From Pseudofrankia sp. DC12 (GTDB taxonomy: Bacteria; Actinomycetota; Actinomycetes; Frankiales; Frankiaceae): a stretch of DNA of 64,000 nucleotides. A program made the position numbers and the translations under genes. Within the stretch, counting starts at the first letter, position 1, and each line of letters opens with the position of its first letter. The notes below the pieces were generated by a model, which saw only the letters and a program-made list of their open reading frames with translations, had not been told where the DNA came from and ran no database searches. Location of the stretch: assembly GCF_000966285.1 (NCBI RefSeq), contig NZ_KQ031391.1:5580430-5644429 (forward strand), given 5' to 3'. Shown here in pieces: positions 2,999 to 19,553 of the stretch.

Positions 2999-5703
<2,705 letters not shown>

Positions 5704-5981: not shown

Positions 5982-6881
5982 TCAACCGCGGTGAGCTGAC
6001 GCGCTGACGGCCGGGTCCGGGTGCGGCTCGCGCAGGACGCCGCCCGCGGCCTCGGCTACTGCCGTCACCAGCGCCGCCGGTGCCCCGCGTCGGCCCCGGA
6101 CGTGCAGCGGCTCGGGCTCGACCGCTGGCAGGTCGTACCGCTGTTCCAGGCCCTCCGGCGCCGTGCCGAGGTGGGCGAGCAGTGCGACGCCGAGGCCCGC
6201 GCGCGCGGCGTGCAGCACCCCGGCCAGGTGGCCGGCCTCGCAGACGACCGACCCCGTCAGGCCGCTGTCGCCGAGCACCTTCAGGGCCCGGCGGCGGATG
6301 GTGCAGGGCTCGTCGATGGCGACAAGGGGGATGCCTGCGCGCCGGTCGGCCGGCGGGTGCCAGCCGGGTGCGGCGTACCAGGCGAGCGGGAGCGCTCCGG
6401 CCGGGCTGACGTTGCGCCCGCGGACGTCGCCCATGAACAGGGACGCGTCGAGGGCGCCCTCGTCGAGCCGGTCGTTGAGCTGCCTGCCGCGGTCGATCCG
6501 GAACCGGACCGAGCAGCCGGGGAAGCTTGTCCGCAGCCGGGCGGTGATCGAGGGAAGCAGCAGGTCGGCGGCGTGCTCGGTGGCCCCGATCACCAGGGTG
6601 CGCTCGGGGCTGTGCGCCGCGCGCAGGCGTTCGAGGGCGTCATCGTGGGCCGCCAGGATCTTGCGTGCCTCGGCGAGGAGCAGCTCGCCCTCCGGGGTGA
6701 AGTGCGCGCGGTTGCCGCCGCGGCGTACCAGGGGACGGCCACAGACCTGTTCGAGGCGCCGGACGTGCTGGCTTACGGCGGACTGGGACAGGTGCAGGCT
6801 GTCGGCCGCCCGGCGGAAGCCGCCGGAGTCCGCGATCGACGTAAGACTGCGGAGCGCGACTATGTCCAGTACGCCCACCAT
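5982..6881 (-). CDS. LysR-family transcriptional regulator
   Basis: 299 residues starting at ATG 6881. The N-terminal winged helix is typical: S-G-G-F-R-R-A-A-D-S-L-H-L-S-Q-S-A-V-S-Q-H-V-R-R-L-E, followed by a linker helix and a periplasmic-binding-like effector domain from about residue 90. It is divergent from the leader peptide and operon starting at 7087, and the 200-nt gap between them holds two strong palindromes and a promoter-like sequence. By position it is the probable regulator of the sulfur operon, comparable in role to CysB or Cbl, but its effector cannot be read from sequence. No gene is convincing in the 278 nt between its stop and furA. Confidence 0.88.
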   Translation of the reverse strand: MVGVLDIVALRSLTSIADSGGFRRAADSLHLSQSAVSQHVRRLEQVCGRPLVRRGGNRAHFTPEGELLLAEARKILAAHDDALERLRAAHSPERTLVIGATEHAADLLLPSITARLRTSFPGCSVRFRIDRGRQLNDRLDEGALDASLFMGDVRGRNVSPAGALPLAWYAAPGWHPPADRRAGIPLVAIDEPCTIRRRALKVLGDSGLTGSVVCEAGHLAGVLHAARAGLGVALLAHLGTAPEGLEQRYDLPAVEPEPLHVRGRRGAPAALVTAVAEAAGGVLREPHPDPAVSASAHRG

Positions 6882-6993: not shown

Positions 6994-7016
6994 TTCGCGA
7001 TCGGTGCGATCGCGAA
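6994..7016. promoter_or_regulatory. Inverted repeat, candidate activator site 2
   Basis: TTCGCGATCG-GTG-CGATCGCGAA, a perfect 10-bp-arm palindrome ending 6 nt before a possible -35 element. That is the position expected of an activator-bound box for the operon to the right. Confidence 0.55.
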
Positions 7017-7022
7017 TCGTCG

Positions 7023-7049
7023 TTGGCCGCCGAGGCATCAATCTACTAT
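7023..7049 (+). promoter_or_regulatory. Promoter of the sulfur operon
   Basis: TACTAT at 7044-7049 is a good -10 hexamer, with TTGGCC at 7023-7028 as a weak -35 about 15 nt before it. A start site near 7056 would give a transcript whose first reading frame is the leader peptide. The weak -35 next to a palindrome suggests activator dependence. Confidence 0.5.
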
Positions 7050-7086
7050 GTTCACTGACATGGTCGAGATGAGTCGCGAGGACCGT

Positions 7087-7200
7087 GTGCCGCGGTCGGT
7101 CGCCGAACGCTCGGCCGCGTCCCTGCGCGCTTCCGGACGGCGCCTCACGCGCCGTCGCGTGATCGACTTCATGCGCCGCGGCGCCACCTGTTGTCGTTGA
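7087..7200 (+). CDS. Cysteine-responsive leader peptide (Cys-Cys-Arg C-terminus)
   Basis: 37 residues from GTG 7087, preceded by GAGGA at 7078-7082; ATGs at 7048, 7060 and 7069 are in frame, but the first overlaps the -10 box. The C-terminal half reads L-T-R-R-R-V-I-D-F-M-R-R-G-A-T-C-C-R-stop. This matches the pattern of short actinobacterial leader peptides (basic L-x-x-R-R-H-V-D-L motif ending in one or more Cys) found before sulfur-assimilation genes. Ribosome stalling at the Cys codons when cysteine is scarce is the expected control mechanism. About 200 nt of untranslated leader follow before the first enzyme gene. Confidence 0.7.
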   Translation: MPRSVAERSAASLRASGRRLTRRRVIDFMRRGATCCR

Positions 7201-7399
7201 CCCGCTGACGCCGTAACTACCGCCGCGCCGGCGCGCGGCACCACCTCCTTGTCGTGCGACCGCCCGGCCCCCAGTGCCCGGCGGTCGGCGCCTTCGCCCA
7301 GGCCGCCGGTGTCGCCGGCTGTTGTCTCCTGCCCTGCCCGAGGCCGCCCGACGCGGCGCGCTGGCGCCTGCCCTCGACCTCCTCGACGAAAGGTCCGTC
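7201..7399 (+). promoter_or_regulatory. Leader region between leader peptide and first enzyme gene
   Basis: It contains a CGCGCCGGCGCG palindrome and an anti-Shine-Dalgarno-like CCACCTCCTT (7241-7250). It also has an 8-bp stem (7257-7264 with 7280-7287) and a small GACCT/AGGTC stem (7376-7380 with 7391-7395) that overlaps the GAAAGG ribosome site of the next gene. These could form alternative attenuator structures; no structure has been computed. Confidence 0.4.
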
Positions 7400-8164
7400 A
7401 TGACCCTCGCCCCCGAGACGGCTGTCCGCAGCTGGCACGAGCCCAGCGGCCCGGCGCTGCGCGGCACGCTCGTCGTGCTGCCCGGCCGCGGGGAGGACCC
7501 GCAGGTCTACGAGCGGTTCGGTCGACGGCTGGCCAACGACGCCTACCGGGTCCACGCCGTGGCGGCGCCCAGCGACGATCCCGGCCGGGCCCGCGACGAG
7601 CTGCTCGACGTGCTGGCCAAGGCGGACGCGGAGGTGCCGCGGATCGTGGTCGGCTCGGACGCGGGCGCGGCGTTCGCCACCTACCTCGCGGCGAACGGCG
7701 AGCTGGCCGCGGTGGCCGCGCTCGTGCTGGCCGGCCTGCCGGCCCGCGTCAGCCACTCGGCGGCCACCGAGTGGGACGAGGAGCTCGGCATCCGGACCGC
7801 GTGCCCGGCCCACCAGGCCCGGATCACCGCCGGGGGCGTGCGCCGGGCGGCGCTGTTCGCCGACCCGCCCGCCGCCTGGCTCGACCCGGCCATCCCCGGC
7901 CGGCTCGACCTGCCGCTGCTCGGTCTGCACGGCCGCGACGACATCGTCAGCCCGGTCGCCGGGGCCCGCGGCTGGTACGCGGCGGCGCCGCGCGCCGAGC
8001 TGGTGACGATCGCGGGCGGCCGTCACGACGCGCTGAACGACCAGACACACCGCACCGTCGCCGCGGCGGTGGTGCAGTTCCTCGAGCGGCTGCGCGCCAG
8101 CGCCGAGCTGACCCCGATCGCGGTGACCGAGCCGCTGCGCGCGCCGGTGGGCACCGATGCCTAG
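7400..8164 (+). CDS. Alpha/beta hydrolase-fold protein, Asp at nucleophile position
   Basis: 254 residues from ATG 7400, preceded by GAAAGG. The fold pattern is clear: a strand L-V-V-L-P-G-R-G near residue 24, the nucleophile elbow V-V-G-S-D-A-G at 83-89, an acid in H-G-R-D-D-I-V (D180/D181) and a His in G-G-R-H-D (H209). The central elbow residue is Asp87 where most hydrolases have Ser. Haloalkane dehalogenases and epoxide hydrolases also use Asp; alternatively Ser86 could act. Its gene overlaps the next by 8 nt, so it is co-translated with the reductase-rhodanese fusion. It may cleave a product of organosulfur breakdown; substrate unknown. Confidence 0.8.
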   Translation: MTLAPETAVRSWHEPSGPALRGTLVVLPGRGEDPQVYERFGRRLANDAYRVHAVAAPSDDPGRARDELLDVLAKADAEVPRIVVGSDAGAAFATYLAANGELAAVAALVLAGLPARVSHSAATEWDEELGIRTACPAHQARITAGGVRRAALFADPPAAWLDPAIPGRLDLPLLGLHGRDDIVSPVAGARGWYAAAPRAELVTIAGGRHDALNDQTHRTVAAAVVQFLERLRASAELTPIAVTEPLRAPVGTDA

Positions 8165-10022
8165 ATACGTGATCGTCGGTTCCGGCGCCGTCGGGGTGAC
8201 GCTGGCCGCCGAGCTGCGCTGGGCCGGCCGCGAGGTCGTCCTGGTCGGCCGGGGGCGCCAGCTGGAGCTGCTGCGCGCCGGCCAGGTCCGCTACTTCAAC
8301 CCGGACGGCTCGTGGGCGCTCGACGTCCCTGCCGCCGGCGGCCCGGACGAGGTCGGTCTCGCGCTCGGGGACGTGCTGGTCCTCGCGACCAAGGCCCAGC
8401 AGGCCGACGAGGTGCTCGCCGAGTGGGCCCGCCAGCCCGTGGCCGGTGGCGCGTGGCGGGCCGGTGAGGTGCTGCCGGTCCTGACCGTGCAGAACGGGCT
8501 GGAGGCCGAGCGCGCGGCGCTGCGCCGGTTCGCCACGGTCGTGGGCTCGGTGGTCTGGGTGCCGTCGACCTACGTGGCTGACGGCGAGGTGTCGAACCCG
8601 GCCGGGCCGGCCCGCGGGGTCTTCTGGCTCGGCACCTACCCGGACGGTCCCGCGTCCGCGGCGGCCCTGGAGATCACCGACGACCTGGTCGCGGCCGGCT
8701 TCGAGGCGCAGCTGGTCACCGATCTCTCCCGCTGGAAGGCCGCGAAGCTGCTGGGCAGCGCGACGTTCGCGCTCGACGCCCTCTACGCGCCCGGCCCGCG
8801 ACGCGAGCGTGCCGCGCGGCTCGTCCAGGACGAGGCGCGCGCGGTGCTGGCGGCGGCGGGCTACGACCCGGCCGACGTCGCCCCGGAAAGCACGCTGCGG
8901 CTGGACCGCTTCGCGTTCCGCCCGATCGAGGGGCACGAGCGCGGTGGCAGCTCCACCTGGCAGAGCCTGGCGCGCTCCCGCGACGCCGAGACCGACTTCC
9001 TCAACGGCGAGATCGCGCTGCTCGCCCGGCTGGCCGGCCGGCGGGCCCCGGTCAACGCCGCCGTCGCGGCCCGCGTACAGCGCGCGGTGGCGGAGCGGAC
9101 GCCTCCCGGGTCGCTGCCGGCCGACGACCTCGCCCAGGTGCTCGCGGCGGCGACGGTCCTCGTCGACGCCGACACCCTGCGGGCGGAGCTCGCCGGCGCG
9201 GTGGTGCCCGCGCTGCTGGACGTGCGCTGGGCACTCGGTGACCCGGATGGGGAGAAGCACTACCTGGACGGCCATCTTCCGGGCGCCGTCTACGTCGACC
9301 TGGACTCGGAGCTGGCCGCGCCCGCGTCGAAGGCGGCGGGCCGCCACCCGCTGCCGGAGCTGGCGGACCTCGAACGGGCCGCCCGTCGCTGGGGCCTGCG
9401 CGCGGGCCAGCCGGTCGTCGTCTACGACGACAACGGCGGCCAGAGCGCGGCGCGTGCCTGGTGGCTGCTGCGCTGGGCCGGGGTCGGCGACGTCCGGATC
9501 CTCGACGGCGGCCTCGCCGGCTGGAGCGCCGCCGGCGGTCCGGTCGTCGCCGGAGCGCAGCGGCCCGAGCCGAGCGACATCCGGCTGAGCGCTGGCCACC
9601 TGCCGGTGCTGGACGCCGACGCCGCGGCGGCGCTGCCGGCCAGTGGTGTGCTCGCCGACGCCCGCGGGGCCGAGCGTTACCGCGGCGAGGTCGAGCCGAT
9701 CGACTCCCGGGCCGGTCACATCCCCGGTGCGGTCAGTCTCCCGACCGCGGCCAACCTCGGCGCCGATGGCCGGTTCCTGCCGGTGGCCGCGCTGCGCGAG
9801 CGGTTCGCCGTCCTCACCACGGCCGCCGACGCCGGCGAGCCGGTCGGCGTCTACTGCGGCTCCGGCGTCACCGCCGCCCACGAGATCGCCGCGCTGGCCG
9901 TCGCCGGCATCGACGCGGCCCTCTACCCGGGCTCCTGGTCGGCCTGGTCGGCCGACCTGTCTCGCCCCGTGGCCACCGGCCCCGGCCCCGGCCCCGACCA
10001 GCAAGATCGGACGATCGCATGA
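8157..10022 (+). CDS. Fusion: ketopantoate reductase-like (ApbA/PanE) domain + tandem rhodanese sulfurtransferase
   Basis: 621 residues. Residues 1 to about 320 form a PanE/ApbA-like dehydrogenase, with dinucleotide-binding G-S-G-A-V-G at 8-13, V-Q-N-G-L and a conserved Lys in R-W-K-A-A-K-L (about 194-197). Residues about 325-610 are a two-domain rhodanese of the thiosulfate/3-mercaptopyruvate sulfurtransferase type. The first rhodanese domain has Asp in the catalytic loop (V-Y-D-D-N-G) and is therefore structural. The second has V-Y-C-G-S-G-V-T-A with catalytic Cys567. The open frame is continuous with no ribosome site inside, so this is a true fusion. It may couple reduction of a 2-keto acid with sulfur transfer. 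It overlaps the upstream gene by 8 nt, and its TGA lies within the ATGA of a possible downstream start at 10019. Confidence 0.85.
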   Translation: MPRYVIVGSGAVGVTLAAELRWAGREVVLVGRGRQLELLRAGQVRYFNPDGSWALDVPAAGGPDEVGLALGDVLVLATKAQQADEVLAEWARQPVAGGAWRAGEVLPVLTVQNGLEAERAALRRFATVVGSVVWVPSTYVADGEVSNPAGPARGVFWLGTYPDGPASAAALEITDDLVAAGFEAQLVTDLSRWKAAKLLGSATFALDALYAPGPRRERAARLVQDEARAVLAAAGYDPADVAPESTLRLDRFAFRPIEGHERGGSSTWQSLARSRDAETDFLNGEIALLARLAGRRAPVNAAVAARVQRAVAERTPPGSLPADDLAQVLAAATVLVDADTLRAELAGAVVPALLDVRWALGDPDGEKHYLDGHLPGAVYVDLDSELAAPASKAAGRHPLPELADLERAARRWGLRAGQPVVVYDDNGGQSAARAWWLLRWAGVGDVRILDGGLAGWSAAGGPVVAGAQRPEPSDIRLSAGHLPVLDADAAAALPASGVLADARGAERYRGEVEPIDSRAGHIPGAVSLPTAANLGADGRFLPVAALRERFAVLTTAADAGEPVGVYCGSGVTAAHEIAALAVAGIDAALYPGSWSAWSADLSRPVATGPGPGPDQQDRTIA

Positions 10023-10162
10023 CCGAGTCCGCCCCGTCGCCGAGGTCCGAGACCGAGAGCTCCGCGGGCACCGCCAGCCAGGCGAGCCACCCCGTCGAGT
10101 TCATCAGCGCGGTCAACGCCACCCCGAACCCCGCCGTTCCGCCGCGCCGAGAGGAGCCCCGC

Positions 10163-11380
10163 GTGACCACCGCGCCCGACTTCGGTTCCGCCATCCCCGC
10201 GACCGCTGCGCCCGAGGTCGAGTTCATCAGCCTCTCGCACCTGAACCCGTCGACCGAGCTCAACCCGATCCCCACCCGTGGGATCGACCTGAAGTACTTC
10301 CGCCGCTACGTCCGCTCGCTGGAGGAGGGCGGCTATGACTACACCCTGCTGCCCTACGGCTCGAACAGCGCCGACTCGTTCGTCGTCGCCAGCGCCGTCG
10401 GACAGCTCACCGAGCGGCTTCGCCCGATCGTCGCGCTGCGGCCGAACACCACCTTCCCGACGGTCGGCGCGCAGAAGCTCGCGACGCTGGACCAACTGAC
10501 CGAGGGCCGGGCCGTCGTCCACCTCATCTCGGGCGGGTCCGACGCGGAGCAGGCCCGGCAGGGCGACTACCTGCCGAAGGAGAGGCGCTACGCACGGACC
10601 TCGGAGTACATCGAGGTGCTGCGCCGCTCGTGGACCGAGGCCGCGCCGTTCAGCCACTTTGGCGAGTTCTACAAGTTCGACGACTTCGGCCCCGGCTTCG
10701 CGCCCTATGCGGCGCCGGTCCCGATCTCGATCGGCGGCCAGTCCGACGAGGCCTTCCAGGTCGGCGGCGAGAAGGCCGACATCTTCTCCTTCTGGGGCGA
10801 GCCGCTCGACGACCTGCGCTCGGAGATCGAGCGGGTCAACGGGATCGCGCGCGCCGCCGGGAGGACCACGCTGCCGCGGATCTGGGTCACCTTCCGCCCG
10901 ATCATCGCGCAGACCGACCAGCTCGCCTGGGAGAAGGCGCACGAGTACGTCGCCAAGGTCGCCGCCACCTTCGCGAAGGCCGGCTCCGCCGCGAAGCGGT
11001 TCGTCGGGACCTCCCCGCAGAACGTCGGCTCGCAGCGTGCGCTGGCGTTCGCGACCCGCTCCGAGCTCTACGACCGGGCACTGTGGACGAAGACCGCCGC
11101 CGTCACCAACGCCGCCGGTGCGTCGACCGCGCTGGTCGGCTCGCCGGAGACAGTCGCCGCGGCGATCCTCGACTACGTCGACCGGGGCGCGTCGCTGGTC
11201 TCGATCCGCGGCTACGACACGCTCGCCGACGCGGTCGACTACGGCCGCTACGTGCTGCCGCTGGTCCGGCAGGAGATCGCGCACCGCAAGGCGACCGGCC
11301 AGCGCGGCACCCTGCAGGCCAACCACCTGGGCAACTACGCGCCCGAGTACGGCCAGTACGCAACGGCAGGCTCACAGTGA
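10163..11380 (+). CDS. SsuD-like FMNH2-dependent alkanesulfonate-type monooxygenase (LLM family)
   Basis: 405 residues from GTG 10163, which has an excellent AGGAG 6 nt upstream and gives a length close to SsuD (about 380). An in-frame ATG at 10019, overlapping the previous stop as ATGA, would add 48 residues. Luciferase-like features include G-G-Y-D-Y-T-L-L-P-Y-G, L-R-P-I-V-A-L-R-P-N, the Q-K-L-A-T-L-D-Q-L-T-E-G-R segment and S-I-G-G-Q-S-D-E-A. These match alkanesulfonate monooxygenases, which cleave the C-S bond to release sulfite and an aldehyde using reduced flavin. It overlaps the next gene by 4 nt. A flavin reductase at the operon end could supply FMNH2. Confidence 0.85.
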   Translation: MTTAPDFGSAIPATAAPEVEFISLSHLNPSTELNPIPTRGIDLKYFRRYVRSLEEGGYDYTLLPYGSNSADSFVVASAVGQLTERLRPIVALRPNTTFPTVGAQKLATLDQLTEGRAVVHLISGGSDAEQARQGDYLPKERRYARTSEYIEVLRRSWTEAAPFSHFGEFYKFDDFGPGFAPYAAPVPISIGGQSDEAFQVGGEKADIFSFWGEPLDDLRSEIERVNGIARAAGRTTLPRIWVTFRPIIAQTDQLAWEKAHEYVAKVAATFAKAGSAAKRFVGTSPQNVGSQRALAFATRSELYDRALWTKTAAVTNAAGASTALVGSPETVAAAILDYVDRGASLVSIRGYDTLADAVDYGRYVLPLVRQEIAHRKATGQRGTLQANHLGNYAPEYGQYATAGSQ

Positions 11381-12564
11381 CCACCGCCACGGAGACGTTC
11401 ACCTTCCCGGTCCCGGACCTGTCGACGGAGGCGCTCGCGGCGGTCACCACGGAGATCGCCGCGACCGCGGCCGGGTACGACCGCAGCGGCGAGACCCCGT
11501 GGGCCGGGCTGCGGGTCGCGCACCGGGCCGGCCTGCTCACCGCCACCGTCGGGACGCAGTTCGGCGGACCCGGGGTCGGCCAGCGCGAGCTGGTCCGCAT
11601 CCTCACCGCGATCGGCGAGGGCGACGCCTCCGTCGGCCTGCTCGCGTCGAACCTGCTGATGAGCCACGCCGGCCAGGCCGCGCACCCGCACTGGCCGGCG
11701 GCCTACTACGACGACCTGCTGCGCCGGTCGCTGGACGGCCCGGCGCTGGTCAACGCGATCCGCGCCGAGCCGGAGCTGGGCGCGCCCGCCCGGGGCGGCA
11801 TCCCCAGGACGACGGCCACCCGCACCGCCGACGGCTGGGTCGTCAACGGCCACAAGGCCTACGGGAGTGGCGGCGAGGCGCTCGCGTACCACGTCCTGTG
11901 GGCCACGGCCGACGAGCCGGACGGCGACGCGGCGCGGCCCCGAGTCGGGCACATCATCGTGCCGGGCGACCTGCCCGGCATCAGCTGGATACCGACCTGG
12001 GACCACGTCGGCCTGCGGGCCACCCACACCGACGACGTGGTCTACGAGAACGTCGAGCTGCCCGCCGACGCCTTCGTCGAGATCCCGCGCGGGCCGGACG
12101 GCGTGTACCGGGACCCGGCCGCGATGGCCGGGCCGGGCGGCTTCGGCCACGCCGCGCTGTACGTGGGCGTCGCCCGCGCGGCCCGGACGGCGTTCGCCGA
12201 GTTCGCCCGCGACCGGGTGCCCTCGGCGCTCGGGAAGCCGGTCGCGCAGACCGAGCGCATCCAGGCGGTCGCCGGCGAGATCGACCTGCAGATCACTCAG
12301 GCCGAGACGCTGCTGCACGGCGCCCTGCTGCGGGCCGAGGCCGGCGACGCGTCGATCCTGCCGCAGCTGTCCAACGTCAAGGTGGCGATCGCCCGCTCGG
12401 TGATCGCCGCGACCCAGGCCGCCGTCGCGGCGCTGGGCAACCCGGGCCTGTCCCGGCACCACCAACTGGAGCGGCACCTGCGGGACGCGCTCTGTATCAG
12501 GGTGCACCCGCCGCAGGAGGACACCGTCCTGCTCGCCAGCGGCCGGCGCGTTCTCGGGGTCTGA
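11377..12564 (+). CDS. Acyl-CoA dehydrogenase-family flavoprotein (SfnB-like)
   Basis: 395 residues starting with GTG 11377 in a GTGA overlap with the monooxygenase stop. It shows the acyl-CoA dehydrogenase layout: helical N-terminus, a beta domain with N-G-H-K-A-Y-G-S-G and the D-H-V-G-L-R-A-T-H-T-D segment, and a helical C-terminal domain ending near residue 390. Members next to luciferase-like monooxygenases belong to the SfnB/DszC-like group, which use reduced flavin and oxygen on sulfur compounds rather than dehydrogenating CoA esters. The operon position favours that role. It is followed by a 230-nt gap. Confidence 0.8.
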   Translation: MTTATETFTFPVPDLSTEALAAVTTEIAATAAGYDRSGETPWAGLRVAHRAGLLTATVGTQFGGPGVGQRELVRILTAIGEGDASVGLLASNLLMSHAGQAAHPHWPAAYYDDLLRRSLDGPALVNAIRAEPELGAPARGGIPRTTATRTADGWVVNGHKAYGSGGEALAYHVLWATADEPDGDAARPRVGHIIVPGDLPGISWIPTWDHVGLRATHTDDVVYENVELPADAFVEIPRGPDGVYRDPAAMAGPGGFGHAALYVGVARAARTAFAEFARDRVPSALGKPVAQTERIQAVAGEIDLQITQAETLLHGALLRAEAGDASILPQLSNVKVAIARSVIAATQAAVAALGNPGLSRHHQLERHLRDALCIRVHPPQEDTVLLASGRRVLGV

Positions 12565-12794: not shown

Positions 12795-14492
12795 ATGTCC
12801 ATCCTCAGACGCCTCGCCCCGGGTTCCCGGGCCTGGCGCCACACCTTCGTCGCGGCCGCGGCCAGTGCCGGGCTGCTCGCCCTGGCCGCCTGCGGCGGCG
12901 GGAACTCCCCGGCAGCCTCGTCGGCGGCCACGGGCGCACCCAAGGCCGGCGGCACGCTGAAGGTCTCGTTCTTCCCGGACAACCCGGCCCTGTCCTGCAT
13001 CGACCCCTTCCAGGTCTACTGGATCGAGCACCGCACGATCATCCGCAACTTCGCCGACTCGCTGACCGACCAGGAACCGGCGACCGGCAAGATCGTTCCC
13101 TGGCTCGCCAAGAGCTGGGAGATCAGCTCCGACGGGCTGAACTACACGTTCCACCTGCGTGATGGCATCACGTTCTCCAACGGCAGGAAGCTCGACGCCC
13201 AGGCCGTCGCCGACGACGCGGCCGGCTGGATCGCGACGGCCAGGGCGAGCAGCGGCGCCGCGTACGGCTCCTCCTACATCCAGGGCCTCACCGGCGCGTC
13301 GGTCCTGGACCCGCTGACGGTCAAGCTGACGCTTTCGCAGCCGAACTCGTCCTTCCTGCAGGCCACCTCGACGACGAACCTGGCCATCACCGACCCGGCC
13401 GAGTACACCGAGACCCCGACCCAGCGCTGCCTGGGCCAGGGCGTGATCGGATCCGGGCAGTTCGTGCTCGACCACTACACGCCCAAGGTCGAGACCGTGC
13501 TGACCAAGCGGCCGACCCCGTACAACTGGGCGTCGAGCCTGGTCAAGAACCAGGGCAGCGCCTACCTGGACAAGGTGACCTTCAACTACGTCGCCGAGGA
13601 CAGCGTCCGCACCGGCAACCTGGTCTCGGGCGCGATCGACGTCGCCTGGCCGCGCAACCCGTTCACGGTCCAGGACGCGAAGCTCATCACCTCCTCCGGT
13701 GACACCCTCGAGAAGCGCTCGCTGCCCGGCGTCTCCTACACCCAGTTCGCCAACACGGCCGACGGCCACGTGCTGAGCGACCTGCAGGTCCGCAAGGCGC
13801 TGCTGAAGTCGGTGGACCTCAAGACGTACGCGGCGACCGTGTACGGACCGGACCACCCGGTCGTGCAGGGCGTCTTCGACTCCACGACGCCCTATTTCAA
13901 GTCCGAGTCCGCGAAGCTGGCCTACGACCCGGCCGGCGCCGCGAAGATTCTCGACGCGGACGGCTGGGTGCTCGGGTCCGACGGCTACCGCCACAAGGAC
14001 GGCAAGGTCCTGGCCCTGGACTACCCGGTGACCCAGTTCTCCGCGGGGCCGGAGCTGCTGCAGGCCCAGCTGAAGAAGGTCGGCATCGACCTGAAGCTGC
14101 GGACGCTGACCCCGGCCGAGCAGACGACCTACACCAGGACCGGGGCCTACGACCTGACGGCGAACTACTTCACCCGGGCGGCCCCCGGCGCGCTGCAGTA
14201 CATCCTCAACCCGGACGTCGCGAACTCGAAGGCCCTGGCGGCCAACTCGGCACCGCCCGAGGTGACCGCGCACATCAGGGAGCTCTTCGCCCAGGCGCTG
14301 CAGACCACCGATGAGAGCCAGGTCGCGAAGGCCTACGGCGAGCTGCAGGACTACCTGATCGACCAGGGCGTCACGTTCCCGCTGTTCGAGCGGGTGCAGG
14401 AGGCCGGCGTCTCCGGCCACGTCCACGGCTTCGCCTTCACGTCGGAAAGCTTCCTGCGGCTCAACGACGTCTGGAAGGACACCGGGGCCTAA
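12795..14492 (+). CDS. ABC transporter substrate-binding lipoprotein (peptide/nickel family 5)
   Basis: 565 residues. The signal sequence has a lipobox L-A-A-C with Cys33, so it is a membrane-anchored extracellular protein. The family 5 (DppA/OppA-like) body includes W-L-A-K-S-W-E, Y-T-F-H-L-R-D-G-I-T-F-S-N-G and V-R-K-A-L-L-K-S-V. ATG 12795 is 8 nt after GAAAGGG. Despite the peptide-type fold, its place between sulfur oxygenases suggests an organosulfur ligand. It may belong to the KPN_01854-type binding proteins that accompany a particular luciferase-like monooxygenase (recalled, not searched). The 230 nt before it contain the palindrome GATCGGCCGATC (12625-12636) but no sure promoter. Confidence 0.9.
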   Translation: MSILRRLAPGSRAWRHTFVAAAASAGLLALAACGGGNSPAASSAATGAPKAGGTLKVSFFPDNPALSCIDPFQVYWIEHRTIIRNFADSLTDQEPATGKIVPWLAKSWEISSDGLNYTFHLRDGITFSNGRKLDAQAVADDAAGWIATARASSGAAYGSSYIQGLTGASVLDPLTVKLTLSQPNSSFLQATSTTNLAITDPAEYTETPTQRCLGQGVIGSGQFVLDHYTPKVETVLTKRPTPYNWASSLVKNQGSAYLDKVTFNYVAEDSVRTGNLVSGAIDVAWPRNPFTVQDAKLITSSGDTLEKRSLPGVSYTQFANTADGHVLSDLQVRKALLKSVDLKTYAATVYGPDHPVVQGVFDSTTPYFKSESAKLAYDPAGAAKILDADGWVLGSDGYRHKDGKVLALDYPVTQFSAGPELLQAQLKKVGIDLKLRTLTPAEQTTYTRTGAYDLTANYFTRAAPGALQYILNPDVANSKALAANSAPPEVTAHIRELFAQALQTTDESQVAKAYGELQDYLIDQGVTFPLFERVQEAGVSGHVHGFAFTSESFLRLNDVWKDTGA

Positions 14493-14511
14493 CCCCAGCA
14501 GGAGCCCGCTC

Positions 14512-14547
14512 GCCGCCGCCCGTCCCGTGTCCGGGGCGGGCGGCGGC
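14512..14547. terminator. Strong intra-operon hairpin after the binding-protein gene
   Basis: GCCGCCGCCCG (14512-14522) pairs with CGGGCGGCGGC (14537-14547), with further C/G pairs inside and a 6-nt loop. It sits 20 nt after the binding-protein stop and before the permeases. There it would attenuate read-through or protect the upstream mRNA so that the binding protein is made in excess. Confidence 0.65.
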
Positions 14548-14611
14548 CCCCTGGGCGACGAGGCCCGCGACCACCCACCGGTAACCACACTCCCGTGAGA
14601 AAGCCAGGCCC

Positions 14612-15601
14612 ATGACCCGATACGTCGTGGGACGCGTGCTCCAGGCGATCGTCGTGCTCTGGGCCGCGTTCACCCTCACCTTCGCGATCCTGTACCTGCT
14701 GCCCAGCGATCCGATGCAGCTGCAGCTCGGCGCCGCGGGCATCGAGGAGGACAGCCTCACTCCCGCCCAGCTGGCCGTCGAGAAACACCGGTTCGGCCTC
14801 GACGAGTCGATCTGGACGCAGTACTGGCACCACCTGTCCGGCGCGGTGCGCGGCGACTTCGGTACCTCGATCGCCCAGGGCGTCCCGGTCACCCACCTGC
14901 TCGGGCAGCGGGCTGGCCAGACCCTGCTGCTCTCGCTGCTCGCGGCGATCCTGGCGCTGGTCGTCGGGACCGCGTTGGCCCTTGTGGCGACCTTCGTGCG
15001 CTGGAACCCGCTGCGGATCTTCCTGACCCGGCTGCCGGCACTCGGCGCGTCTTTCCCGCAGTTCTTCGTGGCGTTGCTGCTCATCGACCTCTTCTCGTTC
15101 CAGCTCGGCTGGTTCCCAGCGAACGGAACTCAGGGCATCGGCTCCGAGGTGATGCCGGTCGTCACCATCGCGGTGCTGGTCTCGTCGGTGTTCGCGCAGG
15201 TTCTCATCAAGAGTTTCGAGGAGACGCTGAGCCAGCCCTACATCGTCACCGCCCGCGCCAAGGGCCTGTCGCGGTCCGCCGTCCACGTGCGGCACGCGTT
15301 CCGCAACGCGGCGCTGCCGGCCGTGACCGTCCTCGGCGTCTTCGCCGGCCTCACGGTCACCAGCTCGATCGTCGTCGAGTCGGTCTTCACCCGGGAGGGC
15401 GTCGGCCGGCTGGCTCAGGAGTCGGTGCTGTCCCAGGACGTGCCCGTGGTCCTCGCGGTGGTGACCGTCACCGCGGCCATGTTCGTGTTCATCAACCTCG
15501 CCGTGGACCTTCTCTACCCGCTGCTCGACCCGCGGATCTCGCCCGCGGGCGGCCGGAAGGTAACGGCACCCAGCGCACCCGTGGAGGTGGGGAGCCTGTG
15601 A
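14612..15601 (+). CDS. ABC transporter permease (DppB-like)
   Basis: 329 residues with six predicted membrane segments. The N-terminus is typical of the DppB/OppB family (R-Y-V-V-G-R-V-L-Q-A-I-V-V-L), followed by a long extracytoplasmic loop. The ATPase-contact loop is in A-R-A-K-G-L-S-R-S-A-V-H-V-R-H-A-F-R-N-A. It forms the channel with the next gene product and is co-transcribed. Its TGA overlaps the next GTG by 4 nt. Confidence 0.9.
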   Translation: MTRYVVGRVLQAIVVLWAAFTLTFAILYLLPSDPMQLQLGAAGIEEDSLTPAQLAVEKHRFGLDESIWTQYWHHLSGAVRGDFGTSIAQGVPVTHLLGQRAGQTLLLSLLAAILALVVGTALALVATFVRWNPLRIFLTRLPALGASFPQFFVALLLIDLFSFQLGWFPANGTQGIGSEVMPVVTIAVLVSSVFAQVLIKSFEETLSQPYIVTARAKGLSRSAVHVRHAFRNAALPAVTVLGVFAGLTVTSSIVVESVFTREGVGRLAQESVLSQDVPVVLAVVTVTAAMFVFINLAVDLLYPLLDPRISPAGGRKVTAPSAPVEVGSL

Positions 15602-16656
15602 CCGATCACGCCCTTCTGGCCCCCGGCCAGGCAGCTGACCAGCCGCCGGCCGGCGCCGCGTCAGCCCCGGCCGGCGCGGCGCCGGCCGGCGGAGACGGAT
15701 CGGCGGCGCCGGCGCCGAGCCCAGCAGCGGCCGCCCACGCGGTGTCGGCCGACGCGGCCGTGAACTCGGTCAGCGTGACCGGGCCGGCCACCGCCGTCTC
15801 CAGGGCGGCGCGGGAGCCGGGCGGGCGGCGGGACGCGCTGCGGGGGGCGGCCCTCGCGCAGCTCGCCCGCAAGCCGATGTTCCTCCTGGCGCTGCTCTAC
15901 GTGCTGTTCGTCGTGGTGTCCGCGTTCGCGCCAGGTCTTTTCACCTCGTTTGGGCCGAACGACGTCCACACGGACGCCGTCGTCCAGGCTCCGAGCATTC
16001 ACCACCTGTTCGGCACGGACACCTACGGACGGGACCTGTTCAGCCGGGTGCTGCACGGCTCGGCGCTGACCATCAAGGCCACCCTGCTAGCGCTGGGCAT
16101 CGCGGGCGTCGCCGGCCTCACGATCGGCGTCGTCGCGGGCTTCGCCGGCGGGTTCGTCGACGCGCTGCTGATGCGGGTCGTCGACGTGCTGCTGGCGATC
16201 CCCAACCTGCTGCTCGCCCTGTCGATCGTCACGGCCATCGGGTACGGGACCCTTCCCGTGGCGTTCGCGGTCGGCGTCGCGATCGTTCCGGGGTTCGCCC
16301 GCACCACCCGGGCCGAGGTACTGCGGGTCAGGACGCTGCCCTACGTGGAGGCTGCCCGCGCGGGCGGCGCTTCGTGGAGCCGGGTGCTGCTGCGGCACAT
16401 CCTGCCGAACTCCTGGGGCCCGGTCGCGGTGCTCGCCGTCCTGGACGGCGGCGTCGCGATCATCGCGATCGCGTCGCTGAGCTTCCTCGGGTTCGGCGCC
16501 AAACCGCCGGCCGCCGAGTGGGGGACGCTGATCGCGAACGGGCGCAACTACCTGCTCACCGCCTCCTGGATCAGCCTGCTGCCCGGTCTGTTCGTGGCCC
16601 TGGTCGTGCTGTCTCTCAACCACATCTCGAAGACGATGCAGGAGCTGGAACGGTGA
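15598..16656 (+). CDS. ABC transporter permease (DppC-like) with Ala/Pro-rich N-terminus
   Basis: 352 residues from GTG 15598 (GTGA overlap). Residues about 1-75 are a low-complexity Ala/Pro/Gly tail not found in standard DppC; the conserved permease starts near residue 80 (L-A-R-K-P-M-F-L-L-A-L-L). The typical H-L-F-G-T-D-T-Y-G-R-D-L-F-S-R motif and the EAA-type loop E-A-A-R-A-G-G-A-S-W-S-R-V-L-L-R-H are present. It partners the preceding permease. The tail may be a flexible cytosolic extension; its role is unknown. Confidence 0.9.
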   Translation: MTDHALLAPGQAADQPPAGAASAPAGAAPAGGDGSAAPAPSPAAAAHAVSADAAVNSVSVTGPATAVSRAAREPGGRRDALRGAALAQLARKPMFLLALLYVLFVVVSAFAPGLFTSFGPNDVHTDAVVQAPSIHHLFGTDTYGRDLFSRVLHGSALTIKATLLALGIAGVAGLTIGVVAGFAGGFVDALLMRVVDVLLAIPNLLLALSIVTAIGYGTLPVAFAVGVAIVPGFARTTRAEVLRVRTLPYVEAARAGGASWSRVLLRHILPNSWGPVAVLAVLDGGVAIIAIASLSFLGFGAKPPAAEWGTLIANGRNYLLTASWISLLPGLFVALVVLSLNHISKTMQELER

Positions 16657-18359
16657 CGACGACCCTTCCCGAGACCATGCCGGCGGCCGAGCTGTCGTCC
16701 CCGGCACTGGTCGAGATCCGCGGTCTGGACGTCGGCTACGTCCGCCATCGCACGGCGCACCCCGCCGTCGTCGGGCTGGACCTGACGGTCCGCTCCGGCG
16801 AGATCGTCGCCGTCGTCGGCGAGTCCGGCTCCGGCAAGACCACCACCGCGAACGCCGTCATCGGGCTGCTTCCGGCGAACGGACGGATCACCGCCGGCTC
16901 GGCCGTCGTCGACGGCGTCGAGACCGCGGGGGCCGGCGAGAGCATCCTGCGGCGGCTGCGCGGATCCGCGGTCGGGCTCGTCCCTCAGGACCCGATGGTC
17001 GGCCTCAACCCGACCACCCGGATCGGCGCGCAGATCGCCGAGGCGGTGAAGCTGCGCGGGGTCCGTGGCCCGGCGGTGGCCGCCGAGGTGCTGGAGTTCC
17101 TCGAGCAGGCGGGTGTCCCCGAACCCGAGCTGCGCGCCAGGCAGTACCCGCACGAGCTGTCCGGCGGGCTGCGCCAGCGAGTCCTGATCGCGATCGCGCT
17201 GGCCGGCCGGCCGAAGCTGATCATCGCCGATGAGCCGACCAGCGCGCTGGACGTCACGGTCGAGCAGAAGATCCTCGACCATCTCACCGGCCTGGTCCGG
17301 GAGCAGGGCATCGCGCTGCTTCTCATCACCCACGACCTGGCCGTCGCGGCGGACCGGGCCGACCGGGTGATCGTCATGCGCGGCGGGCGGATCGTCGAGC
17401 AGGGCGACCCGCGGACGATCCTCGTCCGGCCCCGGGAGGCGTACACCCGCGCGCTCATCGCGGCCGCGCCCGGTCTCGCCCACGGCGGCGTGGTCGTGCC
17501 TCGCTTCGACGTGCGCGGCCAGCCGCTCCCCGAGCCCATCCTGACCCTGACCGAGATCCGCAAGACCTTCCCCACGAACGACGCGCGCCGGGGCCAGCGT
17601 GGCTTCAACGCGCTGGACGGCGTATCCATCCGGGTGCCGCGTGGCCAGACGCACGCCCTGGTCGGAGAGTCCGGCTGCGGCAAGACCACGACGCTACGGG
17701 TCGCGCTCGGCCTGGAGAAGCCGACCAGCGGTTCGGTCGTGCTGGACGGCATTGAGATCGGCGGCCTGTCCTGGGGCAGGCAGCGGCCGCTGCGGCGGCG
17801 GGCGCAGCTGGTGCAGCAGAACCCGTTCGCCGCGCTCGACCCCCGGTTCACCGTCAAGCAGTCGATCACCGAGCCGCTGGTGGCGATGAAGATCGGCGAC
17901 CGGCGCAGCCGGCACGCCCGCGCGAGGGAGCTGCTCGACCAGGTCGCGCTGCCGGCGTCCTATCTCGACCGGCTGCCCGCAGAGCTGTCCGGCGGCCAGC
18001 GTCAGCGGGTCGCGATCGCCAGAGCCCTGGCGCCCAGCCCGGATCTGTTGATGCTCGACGAGCCGGTGAGCGCGCTCGACGTCTTGGTGCAGGAGCAGAT
18101 CCTGCGGCTGCTCAGCGAGCTGCAGACCGAGCTCGGACTGTCCTACCTGTTCGTCTCCCATGACCTGGCCGTCGTCGCGGAGATCTCCCACACGGTGTCG
18201 GTGATGAGCCAGGGGCGGGTCGTCGAGGAGGGGCCGGTCGCCGAGGTGTTCACCAGCCCGCGCAGCCCGCACACCAGGGAGCTCATCGATGCCATCCCCG
18301 GGCAACGCACCGCGGCCCGGGCGCGGGAGGACACGTTGCCGGCAACCGCTGGCTCCTGA
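16653..18359 (+). CDS. ABC transporter ATP-binding protein, two fused ATPase domains (DppD-DppF type)
   Basis: 568 residues from GTG 16653 in a 4-nt overlap with the permease. There are two complete nucleotide-binding domains. The first has Walker [10 protein letters not shown] near residue 57, signature L-S-G-G-L-R-Q-R and Walker B L-I-I-A-D-E-P. The second, after about residue 290, has [17 protein letters not shown] and L-L-M-L-D-E-P. Such fusions replace the separate DppD and DppF subunits. It energises uptake through the two permeases encoded upstream. Confidence 0.93.
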
Positions 18360-18452
18360 CGGCCGTCCACATCCGGGGGCCCGGCGCCCGGCGGCCCAGC
18401 TCGCCGGCGCCCGGGCGAATCCCGGGCCCGCACACGACCGGAGGAAGCACAG

Positions 18453-19553
18453 ATGACCACGCTCGCCAACGCCGAGCATGCCGAGCATGCCGAGGGCTCG
18501 GCCCGGCGGCCCACGAAGCGGCTCGGGTTCAACACCCGGGTCTCGTTCCCGACCGGCGAGGCGGCCCGCGGCCTGCGCGAGGGCATCGAGCTGTTCGTGG
18601 CCGCCGAGGCGCTCGGCTACCAGTCCGGCTGGGCCTACCAGCGGCACTTCGACAACTACCTGTCCTCGCCGCTGCCGTTCTTCGCCGCCGCCGGCCAGCA
18701 CACCACGACCATCACCCTGGGCAGCGCGGTCATCCCGATGCGCTACCAGGACCCGATCCTGCTGGCCGAGGCCGCCGGCACCGCCGACCTGCTGACCTGC
18801 GGCCGGCTGCAGCTGGCGTTCTCCAGCGGCACCGACAGCTGGGACGAGGTCTTCGGCGCCGTCGCGACGGATGCCCGGACCGAGGGCCAGCGGCGGCTGG
18901 CCCGGTTCCTCGCCGGCGTCGCGGGCGAGACCATCCACACCGTCACCGGACAGCGCGGCCCCGCGGGGCCGCCGGCCGGCACGGCCCTGAAGGTCACCCC
19001 GCACAGCCCGGGCCTGCGCGACCGGATCTGGTACGGCTCGGGCCACATCGCCTCCGCGGTGAACGCCGCCCGCCAGGGGCTGCGCCTCATCACCGGCACG
19101 ATCCTGCACGAGGTGACCGAGGAGTCCTTCCCCGAGTACCAGGCCAGGCTGATCGGGGAGTACCGCGCCGCCTGGACCACCGCGCACGGCACCCCGCCGC
19201 CGCCGGTCGCGGTCGCGGCGTCGGTGCTACCGGGGACGACCGCCGAGCTGCGCGCGACCTACGCGGCCTACGACCTGGAACGGCGCACCCAGGGGCCGGC
19301 CGCGTCCCGGCCGAAGGGCGCTTTGGCACCCACCTTCTCGGCCGACCTGCCCAAGGGCTTCCTGATGAGCCCCGTCTACCACGGTGCCCCCGACACCGTC
19401 GCCGCGGCGGTCCTGGCCGACCAGGGCCTCGCCGCCGCGGACGAGCTGGTGCTGTTCCTGCCGCCGGCGTTCGGCCTGGCGGAGAACGTCCGGCTGCTGA
19501 CCGACCTGGCCCGGACCGTCGCGCCCGCACTCGGCTGGACGCCCGCCAGCTGA
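18453..19553 (+). CDS. Luciferase-like flavin-dependent monooxygenase (possibly KPN_01858-type)
   Basis: 366 residues from ATG 18453, with GAGGA 8 nt upstream. Luciferase-like pattern: A-E-A-L-G-Y-Q-S-G-W-A-Y-Q-R-H, I-T-L-G-S-A-V-I-P-M-R-Y-Q-D-P and G-R-L-Q-L-A-F-S-S-G-T. This is a different subgroup from the SsuD-like protein in the same operon. It resembles the monooxygenase family that travels with a KPN_01854-type ABC binding protein, which fits the transporter genes just upstream (recalled, not searched). A 9-nt direct repeat (GCCGAGCAT twice, 18471-18488) gives A-E-H-A-E-H-A-E near the N-terminus. It needs reduced flavin from the next gene product. Confidence 0.83.
   Translation: MTTLANAEHAEHAEGSARRPTKRLGFNTRVSFPTGEAARGLREGIELFVAAEALGYQSGWAYQRHFDNYLSSPLPFFAAAGQHTTTITLGSAVIPMRYQDPILLAEAAGTADLLTCGRLQLAFSSGTDSWDEVFGAVATDARTEGQRRLARFLAGVAGETIHTVTGQRGPAGPPAGTALKVTPHSPGLRDRIWYGSGHIASAVNAARQGLRLITGTILHEVTEESFPEYQARLIGEYRAAWTTAHGTPPPPVAVAASVLPGTTAELRATYAAYDLERRTQGPAASRPKGALAPTFSADLPKGFLMSPVYHGAPDTVAAAVLADQGLAAADELVLFLPPAFGLAENVRLLTDLARTVAPALGWTPAS

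Follow-up and report, generated by a model that had tools for sequence, protein, structure and literature searches.

A probable leaderless, cysteine-sensing leader peptide ahead of an organosulfur-acquisition operon in Pseudofrankia sp. DC12

Mycobacterial polycysteine leaderless short ORFs are said to provide the experimental precedent for cysteine-responsive leaders, which reportedly comes from Canestrari et al. 2020 (doi 10.1111/mmi.14498). Leaderless ORFs of Mycobacterium smegmatis whose Cys codons are contiguous reportedly tune translation of the genes behind them to the supply of cysteine, by attenuation (PMC9031893), and a paper that cites the same Cys-leader work reports the mycobacterial case as translational (PMC13236596). 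Candidate cys-operon leaders without terminators were described for Mycobacterium and Propionibacterium in 2005, as a prediction made without experiments (PMC1262725). In another phylum, ribosome-mediated attenuation has been predicted for uORFC-8-2, which precedes cysS in Rhodobacterales (PMC8632094). NCBIfam holds two models for the mycobacterial polycysteine leaders, NF042936 (Ms4527A) and NF042933 (Ms5788A), and a class-wide one for Actinomycetes, NF042934 (cis_reg_atten, putative leader peptide).

The window analyzed here is a stretch of 64,000 nt (G000:C1:5580430-5644429) from the 6.88-Mb single-contig genome of Pseudofrankia sp. DC12. It holds a short ORF which most likely belongs with the actinobacterial leaderless Cys leaders, as a longer subfamily lying outside the NCBIfam cut-offs. 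Its elements, in window coordinates, are as follows.

7023..7052, + strand: predicted promoter, with a -35-like TTGGCC (7023-7028), an 18-nt spacer and the -10 box TATGTT (7047-7052)
7060..7200, + strand: leader ORF of 46 codons plus TGA, MVEMSREDRVPRSVAERSAASLRASGRRLTRRRVIDFMRRGATCCR, whose start, frame and C-terminus are kept in relatives
7189..7194, + strand: tandem Cys codons TGT TGT, followed by CGT TGA, to 7200
7192-7194, + strand: the second of these Cys codons, a near-invariant UGU nine codons past the invariant Asp codon at 7165-7167 (Asp36)

The frame ends in LTRRRVIDFMRRGATCCR, running from L-T-R-R-R through V-I-D-F to T-C-C-R, with its stop codon TGA at 7198-7200. This is the end that a preliminary description of the locus had read on the + strand, with the Cys codons at its very end, and the distance of about 200 nt given there to the first enzyme gene is 199 nt when measured to ATG 7400. 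The start had to be moved. A 37-codon frame with its own ribosome site had been proposed from GTG 7087, where close relatives carry GCG or GCC, and this candidate was dropped for lack of conservation, as was ATG 7048, which sits inside the -10 box. ATG 7060 is common to 18/18 aligned orthologues, in none of which is there an SD-like motif within 20 nt upstream. The -10 box ends seven nt before this ATG, and its A and T are invariant in the same 18 orthologues (NANNNT, seven bases 5' of ATG). When leaders of the known type are collected class-wide with NF042936 and NF042934, an in-frame start 5-8 nt past [TC]ANNNT is found in 97/120 of them and in 38/42 of the window type, against 2/120 and 2/42 in a +1-frame control. 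Since there is no ribosome-binding site and the -10 box stands seven bases before the ATG, the message is expected to be leaderless, and the ORF is very likely so: it is short, would lie at the 5' end of the transcript, has no SD and has a suitably placed -10 box.

A frame this short and this rich in arginine, in a genome of high GC content, could be a chance or overpredicted one, without function, and the N-terminal half here is indeed unconserved. The codon-level comparison of orthologous leaders that had been suggested at the outset makes this reading extremely improbable, because the constraint is at the protein level and frame-specific. Across 36 distinct sequences, pN/pS of the C-terminal 17 codons is 0.44 in frame versus 1.15 and 1.77 in the other frames, and it is 0.98 for the 16 codons that precede them. 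As the frame-specific signal is confined to the C-terminus, purifying selection acts on the C-terminal peptide and not on the N-terminal part. The Cys codons adjoin the stop codon, and the CC pair is nearly invariant across relatives while most neighbouring residues vary. A leader profile is matched in 30/35 genomes of the family. In a collection with named genomes the relatives belong to Frankia and Parafrankia, which marks the organism as a Frankia-type actinomycete. That the leader recurs across the family ahead of sulfur genes, has a leaderless promoter arrangement and shares its register with known leaders also argues against a chance frame. The leader peptide is real, far beyond chance.

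The genes that follow the leader in the window are these.

7400..8164, + strand: first enzyme gene (gene 1), alpha/beta hydrolase (Pfam Hydrolase_4, E 2.6e-10)
8157..10022, + strand: ketopantoate-reductase-like domain fused to a tandem rhodanese (3-mercaptopyruvate sulfurtransferase-like)
10004..11380, + strand: alkanesulfonate-monooxygenase-like LLM protein (NCBIfam matches under equivalog cut-offs)
11380-12564, + strand: SfnB-like protein of the acyl-CoA-dehydrogenase fold (NCBIfam matches under equivalog cut-offs)
12795..19553, + strand: ABC transporter of the peptide/nickel type, made up of a binding protein, two permeases and ATPases, plus the LLM monooxygenase of the next line
18453-19553, + strand: second LLM monooxygenase

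The leader thus precedes genes of sulfur or cysteine metabolism. In nearly all loci examined, counting downstream context only where the DNA behind the leader was read, it is 5' of organosulfur-acquisition genes: alpha/beta hydrolase, LLM monooxygenases, SfnB-like protein, peptide/nickel-type ABC transporter and sulfurtransferase. Orthologues of the window's own alpha/beta hydrolase are found behind the same leader in relatives. The fusion of the ketopantoate-reductase-like domain and the tandem rhodanese is also retained in the organosulfur loci of relatives.

The window peptide has no match in NCBIfam, and none to NF042934 at E 0.5 or better; its relatives match NF042936 or NF042933 at 12-18 bits, where the cut-off is 45. 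The leader reaches none of the curated cut-offs of NF042934, NF042936 and NF042933. The register is nevertheless common to window-type and class-wide leaders: basic residues, then [VI]-D, then a Cys nine residues past the Asp (D+9). Like the mycobacterial polycysteine leaders of NF042936 and NF042933, the window leader is very likely leaderless, has basic residues and a V-D motif, and carries its Cys codons near the end, ahead of sulfur genes. It differs in being longer (about 46-57 codons for its type, mostly 19-38 for the known type), in having DF or DY instead of DL, and in preceding an organosulfur operon. With NF042934 it shares the Asp-to-Cys distance, the UGU at D+9 and the leaderless start; unlike that family, it has the core R-R-R-V-I-D-F and CC at D+8/D+9. 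The leaders of PMC1262725 resemble it in having Cys codons near the stop and no conserved terminator hairpin, and precede other downstream genes. Tandem Cys codons are also found in uORFC-8-2, whose peptide and phylum are different, and which ends in an intrinsic terminator and uses mostly UGC (PMC8632094).

At least four more such leaders are present in the genome, and three of these precede sulfur-related genes.

L254: before two NtaA/DmoA-family monooxygenases
L255: before a sulfite/nitrite-reductase-like protein and cysH
L257: before a MoaD-like protein and cysM
L258: before a GNAT-like gene, a second leader of the LTRRR type

Conservation, context, register and the sister leaders before cys genes support the earlier assignment to an actinobacterial RR-x-V-D type of Cys leader preceding sulfur genes. 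In this genome cysH, sulfite reductase and cysM would apparently be under similar leader control, beside the organosulfur operon. One 24-codon sister leader, MRSYSWLTRRRSLDFGHLAASRCR (L050 1486-1560, G000:C1:6598893-6598967), has a single Cys codon (TGT) and precedes a GNAT-like gene, itself no obvious sulfur gene.

The codon at D+9 is TGT in 163/165 leaders (43/44 window-type, 120/121 known-type) and in all 18 further leaders from GC-rich genomes, 181/183 in total. At the other Cys positions of known-type leaders TGT is used 31 times out of 160, a difference whose Fisher p of about 2e-48 ignores shared ancestry, although the leaders represent numerous genera and precede several operons that are unrelated. 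TGT accounts for 45/203 Cys codons in ORFs flanking known-type leaders, 13/113 in the window's own ORFs and 76/494 in those of relatives, that is 12-22% in ordinary genes overall. The base 3' of the UGU is C or T in 159/165 leaders. The two exceptions to the TGT are L091, where it falls at D+10 because of one extra residue, and L129. A UGU rule for all actinomycetes was rejected: one low-GC, small-genome family has 10 TGT and 10 TGC at D+9, and with the codon mixed there the claim is restricted to GC-rich lineages. In L287-L306 (small genomes, 43-52% GC, one family), TGC stands mostly where the Cys is the last residue before the stop or where T comes next. Nor would UGU be a general property of Cys attenuators, since UGC is reported to predominate in the Rhodobacterales cysS attenuator (PMC8632094). 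As far as the literature searched shows, the near-invariance of UGU at D+9 is new: no earlier mention was found in the papers examined, which cover Canestrari et al. 2020 through works that cite it.

Such near-invariance suggests that a single codon, at a fixed place, is the sensor. A tRNA-Cys with anticodon GCA is encoded in the genome (other copies being sought non-exhaustively), so that UGU would be decoded by G-U wobble, and the simplest reading is that the D+9 UGU is the sensor, selected for slow decoding. Among the pairings examined, no RNA-pairing cause for its fixation was found: pairing with the Asp codon was rejected, since covariation is lacking in the neighbouring pair; a downstream complement of UGUY is not enriched; and a sliding duplex scan across loci has no dip at UGU. 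A more specific proposal, which we put forward tentatively and regard as somewhat doubtful, is that sulfur-gene leaders of GC-rich actinomycetes sense cysteine through one fixed UGU, a rare codon read by wobble, which has a pyrimidine after it and stands nine codons past an invariant Asp, with the RR-x-V-D nascent peptide helping the stall from within the exit tunnel, and with UGU, not UGC, being required. The near-invariant UGU bears on which codon does the sensing, and on why the peptide sequence of the leader is conserved at all. These codon data also weigh on the idea that translation of the leader simply feeds ribosomes to the next gene, by reinitiation or coupling, the Cys codons being incidental. 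Leader genes have been proposed to increase downstream translation in this way (PMC4833913), but within the genus the leader and gene 1 are at least 199 nt apart, which is long for reinitiation, and neither the CC kept amid variable neighbours nor the fixed UGU would be expected, making this explanation very unlikely.

The reading we prefer, and consider highly probable, is that the leaderless ORF is regulatory and monitors the supply of cysteine. Membership among the actinobacterial Cys leaders makes cysteine sensing likely, and both the dependence on cysteine and the direction of the response likely follow those of the tested mycobacterial leaders, judging by homology and context. The transcript would begin at ATG 7060 or no more than a few nt from it, and translation would be immediate. 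When charged tRNA-Cys is plentiful, ribosomes would complete the leader at TGA 7198, and downstream expression would stay low. With charged tRNA-Cys in short supply, a ribosome would pause at the terminal Cys codons, chiefly at the UGU nine past Asp36, and would cover the region of the stop codon, raising expression of the organosulfur-acquisition operon. The longer subfamily appears to place organosulfur scavenging of Frankia-type bacteria under ribosome-based cysteine control. The pause would act either by freeing the start region of gene 1 or by keeping Rho off the C-rich spacer, and because of the mycobacterial precedent we slightly favour the unmasking of the start region.

The RNA through which the signal would be transmitted has two elements.

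7201..7399, + strand: spacer rich in C (C 0.46, G 0.32), containing GC-rich hairpins such as GACCGCC/GGCGGTC at 7258-7286
7388-7393, + strand: SD of gene 1, GAAAGG

Alternative stems, one of them over this SD, had been suspected in the preliminary description, and folding of the RNA from the leader to gene 1 does not bear them out. There is no consistent sequestration: in folds of seven species the SD at 7388-7393 is partly to mostly unpaired, masking of the leader end changing little, and across loci it has no pairing preference for the Cys/stop region. Sequestration of the SD by that region was likewise not supported, own and mismatched duplex energies being close, at -15.4 and -14.4 (n=22 window-type). 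Among known-type leaders there are 8 perfect stems of at least 9 bp between the leader end and downstream RNA, versus about 0.6 in mismatched controls, and in window-type leaders such stems are not above the controls. The consensus fold does pair the leader end GUCGUUGAC (7193-7201) with the start region of gene 1, GUCAUGAC (7397-7404). This pairing is intact in 5/6 same-genus sequences and imperfect in one, with no two-sided compensation. An Rfam search gave no match. At 7318-7330 the spacer repeats the string CTGTTGTC found at the Cys codons of the leader; it is unconserved in relatives, and the repeat is probably due to chance.

Since the spacer is C-rich, the output could instead be transcriptional, with cysteine sensed in the same way and the ribosome stalled at the Cys codons shielding a Rho entry site in the C-rich RNA. 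The spacer is rich in C and poorer in G in all orthologues, and no convincing intrinsic terminator follows the leader: the one weak candidate, at 7305-7319, has a stem of 6 bp and an interrupted T tract and falls short of a classical attenuator. Rho was also suggested earlier for the terminator-less mycobacterial cys leaders (PMC1262725). However, C-richness by itself is common in GC-rich genomes and does not mark a specific rut site, and for the mycobacterial leader that was tested the published account is of translational control (PMC13236596). Control by Rho is a real possibility, if one that we would not bet on, and unmasking of the gene 1 start region stays the slightly preferred output for the cysteine-sensing leader.

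Two further elements lie upstream of the promoter.

6994..7016, no strand assigned: dyad TTCGCGATC-ggtgc-GATCGCGAA, immediately 5' of the -35 box
5982..6881, - strand: divergent LysR-family regulator (NCBIfam LysR matches)

The dyad is perfect, with 9 bp and a 5-nt spacer, and its CGATC..CGATCGCG is largely conserved in orthologues. In several loci a LysR relative, 57-59% identical, is oriented away from the leader. The dyad is possibly the operator of this regulator, and as it sits between the LysR gene and the promoter of the leader, a second layer of control, by a protein, is likely. Farther upstream, 2999-5703 on the - strand holds a catalase-peroxidase-like ORF beside one resembling a Fur-family regulator, the translations being judged by eye.
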